Part shown: piece by piece, positions 21,917 to 40,256 of the stretch | Position numbering within the stretch: the first letter of the stretch is position 1 | Layout: each line of letters begins with the position of its first letter | Source of the DNA: an alpha proteobacterium IMCC14465 | Lineage (GTDB): Bacteria > Pseudomonadota > Alphaproteobacteria > RS24 | NCBI GenBank assembly: GCA_000293845.2 | Contig: ALYF01000003.1 | Location: 248,001-312,000 of the forward strand | Direction of reading: 5' to 3' | DNA: 64,000 nucleotides | Translations under genes and position numbers: made by a program | Notes under the pieces: generated by a model | Database searches by the model: none | What the model was told of the DNA's origin: nothing | What the model saw: only the letters and a program-made list of their open reading frames with translations

Positions 21917-22393
21917 TTAGGTAAGCGCGTCTATTTCTTCGTCACTTAATTCACCCGGCACAACGGTTACAGGGATATGAAACCCTGCCTTGCCCGTTGC
22001 CAATGCACCGACAAGTGGCCCCGGCCCTGCCGGATCAGTACCAGCCGCCAGCACCAGCGTCGAAATGGTCTTATCACTATTAATCAAATCCATGACCTGC
22101 TCAATACGATCACCCTCCATTATATGGGTCTCGGGGCGGCGTCCGGCAATTTTTTCTACCTCAGCAGAAAGCTCAGCGAGTATTAACTCAGCATTTTCTT
22201 TCGCCTCTTCTTTCATCAGCGTTTCCACACCCAGCCAATGTTCAAAGCCGCCAGGCTCAAGCACTACCAAAAGTGCAAGCTGACCGCCATTGCCATGCGC
22301 CCGCCGTTCAGCCCAGCGCAAGGCCGCGCGGGACTCGGGCGTGCCGTCAACAACAACTAGAAATTTTCTCGGTAAATGTGCGTCTTCATACAT
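21917..22393 (-). CDS. Universal stress protein family protein
   Basis: Cytosolic UspA-fold protein, 158 residues. Hallmarks are the N-terminal KFLVVVDGTPESRAALRWA strand-loop-helix and the C-terminal LVLAAGTDPAG...VTVVPGELSDEEIDALT region, partly matching the ATP-binding G-2x-G-9x-G pattern. Encoded between trpS and nfuA. Function beyond the family fold is unknown. Confidence 0.85.
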   Translation of the reverse strand: MYEDAHLPRKFLVVVDGTPESRAALRWAERRAHGNGGQLALLVVLEPGGFEHWLGVETLMKEEAKENAELILAELSAEVEKIAGRRPETHIMEGDRIEQVMDLINSDKTISTLVLAAGTDPAGPGPLVGALATGKAGFHIPVTVVPGELSDEEIDALT

Positions 22394-22472
22394 AATGGTA
22401 AACTGCCTTATCTCAAATGATGCGGCAAGTGCTGTTTTGTTCTTGTAATTGGTAGCATTTATTTAAACGGGC

Positions 22473-37014: not shown

Positions 37015-37398
37015 TTATTCATGCCAAATATTCTCAAATCGACGAGGCCATTTGCCGGAAACAATAATAATGGCATCAAACCGCCATGAGCAATCCGCAA
37101 AATCTGGATGCCGCACCATGAACATATCCGCAGCATTGGAAATGCGCCGCCATTGCCGCGTCGTTAACGAGTCGAGCGCGACCTTCTCGCTCTGACGTGC
37201 CTTGACTTCAATAAAGGTGATGATTTTCCCTTTTTTAGCAACCAGATCAATTTCACCTAATGGGCATTTCCAGCGCCACGCCAAAACGCGCCAACCCGTA
37301 AATATGAGATAAAGCGCGGCAAAAATTTCAGCACGCAAACCACGGCGATAAGCCTGAATTTTTTTCAAGGGCGGTTTTTTCTTATCAGCATAGATCAT
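37015..37398 (-). CDS. yraN: UPF0102 family protein YraN (endonuclease-like fold)
   Basis: 127 residues of the UPF0102 family, related to Holliday-junction resolvase-like nucleases, activity unproven. The core has GLRAEIFAALYLIFTGWRVLAWRWKCPLGEIDLVAKKGKIITFIEVKAR: the E, D and E-x-K of the PD-(D/E)xK site are visible. C-terminal RISNAADMFMVRHPDFADCSWRFDAIIV is typical. The start overlaps the rsmI stop by 4 bp (ATGA), so the two are coupled. Confidence 0.93.
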   Translation of the reverse strand: MIYADKKKPPLKKIQAYRRGLRAEIFAALYLIFTGWRVLAWRWKCPLGEIDLVAKKGKIITFIEVKARQSEKVALDSLTTRQWRRISNAADMFMVRHPDFADCSWRFDAIIIVSGKWPRRFENIWHE

Positions 37399-38285
37399 GG
37401 CAATCGGTCATCCCCGTTATCTGAAAGCGTTAACGCCAATTGATAAACATCCCGCTTCGACCAGCCAGAGAGTGCCGCAACCCGTGCCGCCGCGGTTTTA
37501 AGAGGTTGATTTTGCATCGCCACACGAAGGCTATTCCGCACGTCAAGCTCAGACATCTTTTCTTTTGCAACAGGCGGGTGAATAAGCACCACAATCTCAC
37601 CCCGCGCCGAGGCATTCGCCTCAAGCGTCTCAATGAGTTCTGTAGGCGCGCCAATGAGAGCCTCCTCAAAGGCTTTGGTCAATTCACGACAAACCGCTAT
37701 GTCCCGATTTGGCATCACAGCCTCAATATCCTTTAAAAGCCCAATCAACCTTTTGGGGCTTTCAAACAACACCAATGTGACTGGAATATCGACCAGCTCC
37801 GCCAGAGCTGTTTGCCGTGCCGCAGATTTAGGCGGCAAAAACCCAGCAAATAAAAAACGGTCACTTGGAAAACCGGCAATACTCAGCGCCGCAATCGGGC
37901 TGGAGGCGCCGGGCACTGAAAAAACCTCATGCCCCGCTGCGCGCATTTCTTTCACCAGTCGATAGCCGGGGTCTGATATCAGCGGTGTGCCGGCATCACT
38001 GACCAGCGCCACAGAAAGACCTTCGTCAAGGTGGCGGGCAATCTCGGAACGCACAGTATCGGAAGAATGCTCGTGATAACTATCGGGCTTGCGTTGAATG
38101 CCATGAAGGGAAAAAAGTTTTTTGGTAATGCGCGTATCTTCACAATAGACTTTATCAGCCTGCGTCAGAACATCCAGCGCGCGCAGGGTGATGTCTCTGG
38201 CATTGCCAATGGGGGTGGCGACAATATAAAGGCCACATTTGAGGCTGCCTTGACGTGCAGAAATCTTTTTTTCAGACCCACTCAC
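37395..38285 (-). CDS. rsmI: 16S rRNA (cytidine(1402)-2'-O)-methyltransferase RsmI
   Basis: Tetrapyrrole-methylase-fold enzyme acting on C1402 of 16S rRNA. 296 residues. Motifs LYIVATPIGNARDITLRALDVL, YCEDTRITKKLFSLHGI, VALVSDAGTPLISDPGYRLV and SVPGASSPIAALSIAGFPSDRFLFAGFLP. The start is GTG at 38285 because a stop codon lies a few codons upstream in frame and no ATG gives the family N terminus. Divergent from the LpoA-like gene; a duplicated palindrome lies in the shared upstream region. Confidence 0.95.
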   Translation of the reverse strand: MSGSEKKISARQGSLKCGLYIVATPIGNARDITLRALDVLTQADKVYCEDTRITKKLFSLHGIQRKPDSYHEHSSDTVRSEIARHLDEGLSVALVSDAGTPLISDPGYRLVKEMRAAGHEVFSVPGASSPIAALSIAGFPSDRFLFAGFLPPKSAARQTALAELVDIPVTLVLFESPKRLIGLLKDIEAVMPNRDIAVCRELTKAFEEALIGAPTELIETLEANASARGEIVVLIHPPVAKEKMSELDVRNSLRVAMQNQPLKTAAARVAALSGWSKRDVYQLALTLSDNGDDRLP

Positions 38286-38341
38286 TTATTTGTCTTTCTT
38301 CATCGACTTTGAGACAGGATAATCCGACATAAGATGACTTT

Positions 38342-38395
38342 GCCTTATTTGCCTAAAATGGCAAGAGGGCCTTATTTGCCTAAAATGGCAAGAGG
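38342..38395. repeat. Perfect 27-bp tandem duplication containing a palindrome
   Basis: Two identical 27-bp units, each with the inverted repeat TTGCC-N6-GGCAA, stand between divergent rsmI and the LpoA-like gene. They lie 57-110 bp upstream of the rsmI start and about 140 bp before the LpoA-like start. The centres of the two palindromes are 27 bp apart. It may be a doubled operator. Confidence 0.9.
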
Positions 38396-38534
38396 CTATC
38401 CTCAAGGGCTGATGAGCATCAATTTGTGAGAAAATGCATCACTTTCGAAGCGGCAGTTTTTCGGTTAGTTTAGGCATATGTTAAAGCCATACTCCGGTCA
38501 TAATTCATCTTTATGGCTTATCCGGTAAAGTGAG

Positions 38535-40256
38535 ATGATGATGAAACACGCTAATATGACGCGAAACATACCGCGCGCCCTTATAATGGCACTCATGTCA
38601 GGCTGGATGACAGCTTGTGCCAGCAATACCGGCACTGGCGATCTCGGCAAGAGTTCAGGTAACGGGACACAAGGCACGGTTTATGAACTGCCCTCCACTT
38701 TTGGAAATTCGGCCTCAGGAACTTCACCTTCTGGAGCGCTGGCCTATCGCATTGTCGAAAACACCAAAGCGTTTTTGCGCGCCTTACCCGAAACCAGCAA
38801 TCAACCCACAGCATTTGAAAGCCAATCTGACAACCTCCCCAAAGAAAACAGGCTGAAAGTCATGAATGATGGACGCATACGCGTCGGGCTTTTACTGCCT
38901 TTCGAGTCGGGTAATGAAGGCGTCAATGAAGTCGCGACAGATCTTTTTAACGCTGCCCAGCTGGCTGTATTTGACATAAACCGTCCCGAAATCACGCTTA
39001 TTGTTAAGCCTACAAATGGGACAAAAAAAGGCGCGGTTAGAGCCGCACGCGCCGCCCTTAACGAGGGTGCGCAAATTATTATCGGCCCTGTTTTTGCCGA
39101 CTCCGTTCGTGCCGTCACCCCCATTACAACATCAGCTAATGTGCCCTTGATAGCTTTCTCCAATGACCGCTCTGTTGCCAATCAGGGCGTCTGGCTTATC
39201 GGATTCCTGCCTGAACAAAATCTGGAACGGATTATCGAGACCGCCAGACTCGAGGGTAAGGAGCGCTTTGCCGCCCTCATTCCCGAAACACCCTATGGGC
39301 AAAGAATTGCCGCCGCGCTTGAGCCGACAGTCACGCGCTATGGTGGTGAGCTTGTTCAAGTGGAATATTATCAAGAAGAAGCGCAATCCATGTTCGACCC
39401 GGTTCAGAAGCTGGCTCAATATGATGACCGGAAAATCGCCAAGGAAGAAGAAATGGCGCGCCTGATGGAAGAGGCCCGCCTGCTATTACCGGACACGCCA
39501 GAGGAAGAATTTAACAAGGCGCTGGCAGAAAAAGCGCCAGAACTCTTTGCTCAGATACAAGAACTTGAGCGCCGCGAAACCTTCGGCGAATTGCCTTTTG
39601 ATGCCGTCATTCTGCCTGAAGGCGGGGTGAAGTTAAGAAGCCTTGCACCACTATTGCCTTATTTTGACGTTGACCCGCGTGAGGTAAAATTTCTCGGCAC
39701 TGGCTTGTGGGATGACCCGCAGCTTGGTCAAGAACCACCCCTTGTTGGCGGTTGGTATGCCGCGCCCGACCCCGGGGGCTGGAAAGCCTTTTCAGGGAGA
39801 TACAAAAAAGTCTACGGGCAGAAGCCGCGACGCATCGCCAGCCTCGCTTATGATGCCATCAGTCTGACTGCCGCGCTTTCTGCCATTAACACAGAGAACC
39901 CGTTCAAAGATACGGCGATGACAAATGCAGACGGCTTTTTGGGTATTGATGGTATTTTTCGCCTTAATGAAGATGGCCTCAATGAACGTGGTCTTGCTGT
40001 CCTTGAAGTCAGAAGGCGGAAAAACAAAGTCGTGACGCAAGCGCCCGACAGTTTTGTGCAAATTGACCGCACCAAGCAGAATTTCAATGCGCTGTTCTTG
40101 TCCAAAAATTTAGAAACAGAAATCCAAACGGAAATCCAAACAGATGAAGGCGTGATTTTTCTAGACTCAGGCGATCAACAACTCAGCAACCAGCCTATCG
40201 AGGACGAGGCGACCATCATGCGTGGCGACGAGCCTGTCGTGCCTATCCTCCAATAA
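38535..40256 (+). CDS. LpoA-like penicillin-binding protein activator lipoprotein
   Basis: Predicted lipoprotein of 573 residues. The signal (ALIMALMSGWMTACASNTG) has a Cys near residue 28, and the next 80 residues are Ser/Thr/Gly-rich. A periplasmic ligand-binding (type I) domain follows from about 115 (RVGLLLPFESGNEGVNEVATDLFNAAQLAV, IIGPVFADSVRAVTP, FLPEQNLERII, ALIPETPYGQRIAAAL). The N-terminal helical-repeat domain of E. coli LpoA is absent. A coiled Glu-rich insert sits near 300-350. The last 30 residues overlap hemW on the other strand, and a 12-bp repeat gives EIQTEIQT. Neighbourhood rsmI-yraN-dolP supports the call. Confidence 0.85.
   Translation: MMMKHANMTRNIPRALIMALMSGWMTACASNTGTGDLGKSSGNGTQGTVYELPSTFGNSASGTSPSGALAYRIVENTKAFLRALPETSNQPTAFESQSDNLPKENRLKVMNDGRIRVGLLLPFESGNEGVNEVATDLFNAAQLAVFDINRPEITLIVKPTNGTKKGAVRAARAALNEGAQIIIGPVFADSVRAVTPITTSANVPLIAFSNDRSVANQGVWLIGFLPEQNLERIIETARLEGKERFAALIPETPYGQRIAAALEPTVTRYGGELVQVEYYQEEAQSMFDPVQKLAQYDDRKIAKEEEMARLMEEARLLLPDTPEEEFNKALAEKAPELFAQIQELERRETFGELPFDAVILPEGGVKLRSLAPLLPYFDVDPREVKFLGTGLWDDPQLGQEPPLVGGWYAAPDPGGWKAFSGRYKKVYGQKPRRIASLAYDAISLTAALSAINTENPFKDTAMTNADGFLGIDGIFRLNEDGLNERGLAVLEVRRRKNKVVTQAPDSFVQIDRTKQNFNALFLSKNLETEIQTEIQTDEGVIFLDSGDQQLSNQPIEDEATIMRGDEPVVPILQ
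40119..40142. repeat. 12-bp in-frame tandem repeat near the end of the LpoA-like gene
   Basis: Two copies of gaaatccaaac(g/a) encode the EIQTEIQT stretch just before the region that overlaps hemW. Confidence 0.85.

Follow-up and report, generated by a model that had tools for sequence, protein, structure and literature searches.

The intergenic region between rsmI and an LppC-like lipoprotein gene in IMCC14465 carries an exact 27-bp tandem duplication, which is lacking in the congeners and lies on a conserved CTTGCC/GGCA element that recurs before a universal stress protein (usp) gene. An excess of exact tandem arrays was also observed in the sampled DNA of this genome. The reading we consider probable, which was formed after the alignments were viewed, is that the element is a minus-strand promoter of rsmI with its start at or near ATG 38330, and that the 27-bp duplication is accidental, its distal copy probably having little effect. 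The window is the whole 64-kb stretch of DNA that was analysed.

Direct reading of the letters gave two identical 27-bp units, 38342–38368 and 38369–38395, in exact head-to-tail order. The original prediction of an exact duplication was correct, and both units carry the palindrome TTGCC-N6-GGCAA. The array contains exactly 2.0 periods, so no microhomology overhangs its junction. Among the five exact tandem arrays of the window (period 12–120) this pair has the longest period, and five first-order Markov shuffles of the window (period 12–60) gave 0 arrays each. The genes, repeat copies and palindromes of the region are as follows.

37395–38285, minus strand: rsmI (TP_methylase, RsmI_C)
38286–38330, minus strand: 14-codon frame MSDYPVSKSMKKDK, closed by a TAA that adjoins the rsmI GTG
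38342–38368: proximal copy of the 27-bp unit, covering −12 to −38 relative to ATG 38330 (minus strand) by counting
38349–38364: first TTGCC-N6-GGCAA palindrome, spacer TAAAAT, absent in five congeners
38369–38395: distal copy of the 27-bp unit, in IMCC14465 (G000) only and in 0/5 congeners
38376–38391: second TTGCC-N6-GGCAA palindrome, spacer TAAAAT, absent in five congeners
38535–40256, plus strand: LppC/Peripla_BP_6 lipoprotein-like gene

The divergent arrangement was also as expected, with a minus-strand cluster of rsmI, UPF0102 (yraN), a BON-domain gene and the glutathione synthetase gene (gshB) opposite the LppC/Peripla_BP lipoprotein-like gene, and with conserved non-coding stretches. 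The RsmI and LppC proteins of the five congeners showed 80–86% identity to those of the window. In the alignment (one genome per species) all five congeners have a single copy of the 27-bp unit, and as judged from this comparison the doubling is a recent tandem duplication. A search of the rsmI–LppC intergene against its own genome gave no second strong match.

The frame opened by ATG 38330 on the minus strand is an N-terminal extension of RsmI in 5/5 congeners, where it stays open. In IMCC14465 it is 14 codons long, and the stop adjoins the rsmI GTG in frame (AAA TAA GTG). In blocks of 15 alignment columns, the number invariant among the congeners was 8, 12 and 11 for 38295–38339, 12 and 13 for 38370–38399, and 15 and 12 for 38475–38504 near the LppC gene. 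The congeners use the first of these stretches as coding sequence as far as 38330. On the LppC side, the genus alignment showed a second conserved block before the gene (38470–38512, plus strand; ATATGTTAAAGCCATACT..ACATAATT-like), which is perhaps a putative LppC promoter, and TTTACTT and GATAG appear again on this side of the intergene in several other genera. A plus-strand leader peptide starting at ATG 38334 (MTLPYLPKMARGPYLPKMARG...), whose frame the 27-bp repeat preserves, was rejected because ACG replaces ATG in 2/5 congeners and the frame of L014 stops after seven codons.

The original prediction read the palindrome as a possible doubled operator. This was not supported, and the two outcomes named there as refuting it, absence from other promoter regions and from relatives, were both observed. 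TTGCC-N6-GGCAA alone is no more frequent than chance gives: it occurs at 10 places in the 1.92-Mb genome (16 contigs), where the frequency of its arms within the window predicts about 11.4. The eight other places are all inside ORFs of 158–580 aa (mechanical ORF call), and a search for promoter-region sites yielded none beyond this pair. The reversed-pattern control gave two places, which alone would suggest enrichment, but this control does not preserve 5-mer abundance. When arm gaps of 0–30 were compared in the window, gap 6 had the most exact cases (three), two of them being the duplication itself; with one mismatch allowed, the window showed 10 matches against 4.7 expected, a count reached by 2/100 shuffles. 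At the orthologous promoter the palindrome was found in 0/5 congeners, which read TTTGCCTTATTCG(C/T)(C/T)C(A/C/T)AAATGGCAAG at this position, and the second copy exists in IMCC14465 only. An operator regulon built on this palindrome was therefore rejected for its chance-level count and ORF-internal sites.

The genus does conserve CTTGCC at 35 nt before the rsmI ATG together with GGCA at −14 to −11 (six genomes). The elements that bear on the promoter reading are listed below.

38360–38365, minus strand: CTTGCC, −35 from ATG 38330, in 6/6 genus genomes; proposed −35 box of rsmI
38341–38344, minus strand: GGCA, −14 to −11 from ATG 38330 by counting; proposed part of the −10 region
38387–38392, minus strand: second CTTGCC, 27 bp further upstream, a putative extra −35 box with GGCCCTCT in place of GGCAAAGT at the matching distance
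38358–38386, plus strand: sigma-70-like site ATGGCA-N17-TAAAAT bridging both copies (one found, 0.7 expected)
22405–22429, minus strand: CTTGCC-N12-ATAAGGC upstream of the usp gene, kept in 6/6 genus genomes

A search of the six genus genomes for CTTGCC-N9..14-ATAAGGC resulted in 17 matches, against one for the reversed control. Thirteen of them are rsmI (6/6 genomes, twice in IMCC14465) and usp (6/6), and the other four, checked on both strands, are inside ORFs of 538–774 aa. The usp gene (21917–22393, minus strand; Usp match, E 7.2e-11) thus marks the only other non-ORF place of this pattern in the genus. The 25-base element gave six stretches in the genome_contigs search, four belonging to congeners and two (L055 and L059) located within ORFs (537 and 449 aa) that have neither an rsmI nor an LppC match in their neighbourhood; viral_contigs gave 0 matches. 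A looser search of the genus gave further matches at three mismatches, and outside the genus 1/18 family intergenes (L026) matched within seven substitutions.

In the wider family, CTTGC[CT] was found at −34 to −37 of an in-frame start in 17/25 rsmI loci, a lenient count, as several starts were tried per locus. This count omits five of 23 family loci that had no rsmI match (L027, L036, L044, L045, and L046), and L078 was added. The box is missing from eight loci, seven in genus g6 and one (L078) in g4. At usp, CTTG stands at −38 to −33 in 25/26 family loci (the exception is L233, and the partial locus L234, which has no start, was omitted), and in the same 25 loci GGCA or GACC begins at −15 to −11. 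Across relatives the box therefore keeps a fixed distance of about 35 nt from the start codon at both genes, as is expected of a promoter with a short leader or none.

A wider regulon, ACTTGCC-N10..18-GGCA-N6..16-ATG, was tried and rejected: 20 of its 27 rows in six genomes were inside ORFs of 212–891 aa. The remaining rows were four rsmI, two usp of IMCC14465, and one LCM methyltransferase gene, for which CTTGCC was present only in IMCC14465 (1/4). In 193 upstream regions of IMCC14465, the bin −35 to −31 held 5/16 TTGCC and 5/19 TTGAC. The Poisson P for TTGCC was 0.004 with a bin chosen post hoc, and two of the five TTGCC are those of usp and the LCM gene.

The recurrence of the element at two genes could also be explained by a regulator binding the dyad TTGCC-N15/16-GGCA before rsmI and usp, in which case the duplication would add half-sites and make binding stronger or wider. 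The outer arms are invariant at rsmI in 6/6 genus genomes, rsmI and usp have the dyad in common, and arms in the form TTGCC-N15-GGCAA also make a dyad. However, the base after GGCA at usp varies within the genus (G, C or A), and outside it the box before usp is CTTGTTT or CTTGTCT (one locus with N), followed by TGGCAGCAT, TGGCAACCT or GCGACCAT, so that the symmetry is broken and the distance to the start codon is kept. A constant start-codon distance in two unrelated genes with one variable arm fits −35/−10 elements better than a symmetrical operator, and we consider such a regulator unlikely.

Under the promoter reading, CTTGCC and GGCAAAGT, read on the minus strand, would be the −35 box and the −10 region of rsmI, and the transcript would begin at or very near ATG 38330 with a very short leader or no leader at all. 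The 27-bp unit takes in the beginning of the −10 region together with the −35 box and spacer, and in the proximal copy the original distance to the start is kept. This stretch would have been doubled in tandem by accident, through slippage or fill-in. The distal copy would then provide a second −35 box lacking an intact −10, which is the reason to expect probably little effect on rsmI. A recognisable sigma-70 −10 element was not found, CAAAGT at −12 to −7 being a poor consensus match, and a promoter scan of the minus strand detected no sigma-70-like site. Three further observations count against this reading: the AAGG before the ATG in the genus (g1) could be a Shine-Dalgarno sequence, which would imply a leader; the frame from ATG 38330 is closed so early in IMCC14465; and eight rsmI loci have no box.

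The original prediction had also offered two hairpins in a leader, which could be read from the plus strand of the LppC gene or the minus strand of rsmI. The folding part of this idea stood, since the sequence of IMCC14465 folds well: 60 nt gave −24.4 kcal/mol (z −2.92) on the plus strand and −20.1 kcal/mol (z −2.22) on the minus strand, and 30 nt of the plus strand gave −14.7 kcal/mol (z −2.95). The plus-strand stem, however, is not kept in the congeners (−5.4 to −6.1 kcal/mol). On the minus strand the difference was smaller (−10.5 kcal/mol for IMCC14465 and −4.8 to −10.4 for the congeners), with L012 folding like IMCC14465 (−10.4). No Rfam family reached its threshold in 38000–38800, where the only two matches scored 16.2 and 15.8 bits against a gathering value of 47, and no terminator-like site was present within 38200–38600. 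Functional leader hairpins are thus highly improbable.

The accidental origin was considered against the frequency of exact tandem arrays, scanned at periods of 12–150 with multiples of one array's period merged. IMCC14465 showed 34 arrays in 424 kb sampled (the window and L097–L114; found periods 12–32). The other genus genomes showed one in 440 kb (G005; L152–L169 and L209–L213), three in 199 kb (G004), two in 100 kb (G003), and one in 80 kb (G001, after 46 of its 47 tandem rows, which were a run of N, were dropped). A genome of another genus, G026, had 16 in 320 kb, and E. coli had one in 200 kb. The binomial P for IMCC14465 against G005 was 6e-10, a comparison of sampled stretches rather than whole genomes.

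Thirteen of the 34 arrays in IMCC14465 are intergenic by mechanical ORF call. Relatives have fewer copies at 6/13 aligned arrays (38342, 30397, 42838, L106:14499, L107:16674, and L110:13516), and the other seven alignments were incomplete or poor. These copy numbers were read from the alignments themselves, as gap projection is unreliable where the flanks hold indels. The excess of arrays and the lower copy numbers in relatives indicate that the 27-bp duplication belongs to a mutation class that is common here, and replication slippage or fill-in is its probable origin.

The doubling might instead have been selected, if an extra −35 box or the bridging plus-strand site changed the expression of rsmI or LppC. 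In another genus, G012 (L047), an imperfect 13-bp unit with CTTGC[CT] occurs three times before rsmI, at −36, −49, and −62, apparently by a separate event, which means that the box has been multiplied at least twice in the family. The plus-strand sigma-70-like site, moreover, exists only because of the duplication. Against selection, the bridging site is within chance expectation, the distal copy has no −10, and tandem arrays occur throughout the sampled DNA of IMCC14465, 21/34 of them in ORFs. We therefore regard a selected doubling as very doubtful. A still bolder proposal is a promoter class common to rsmI and usp (CTTG near −36, GGCA near −14, start at the ATG) that would use an unassigned sigma factor or activator, and whose −35 box would be repeatedly multiplied (27 bp twice here, 13 bp three times in G012) as a heritable tuner of expression in a high-duplication lineage; this is a long shot.

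The 27-bp duplication is fairly ordinary and seems to be a small copying accident of a kind that happened many times in this genome. It illustrates that a recent accident of this sort within a probable promoter can leave a doubled palindrome that catches the eye. The promoter-like element common to rsmI and usp is a lead to follow, and the excess of exact short tandem duplications in the sampled IMCC14465 DNA over its congener is more interesting than the duplication itself. A narrow literature search on the divergent rsmI/lpoA promoter gave no paper on this promoter by title among the matches listed, and a similarly narrow one on short tandem duplications and microhomology in bacterial genomes found none.

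Short exact tandem duplications that arise from replication slippage or the fill-in of breaks form a general mutation class. The case described here resembles it in having two identical head-to-tail copies where relatives have one; it differs in that no microhomology extends past the junction and in that the sampled genome is rich in such arrays.

For the promoter, the closest comparison is with leaderless transcription in other Alphaproteobacteria. Reported numbers of leaderless mRNAs are 375 in Caulobacter crescentus (PMC4117421) and 171 in Sinorhizobium meliloti (PMC3616915). As in leaderless or short-leader promoters, a −35-like box precedes the start codon of rsmI and usp by about 35 nt. 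The differences are that the box here is CTTGCC, CTTGTT or CTTGTC, that GGCA or GACC stands nearer to the start, and that the −10 region does not fit sigma-70.
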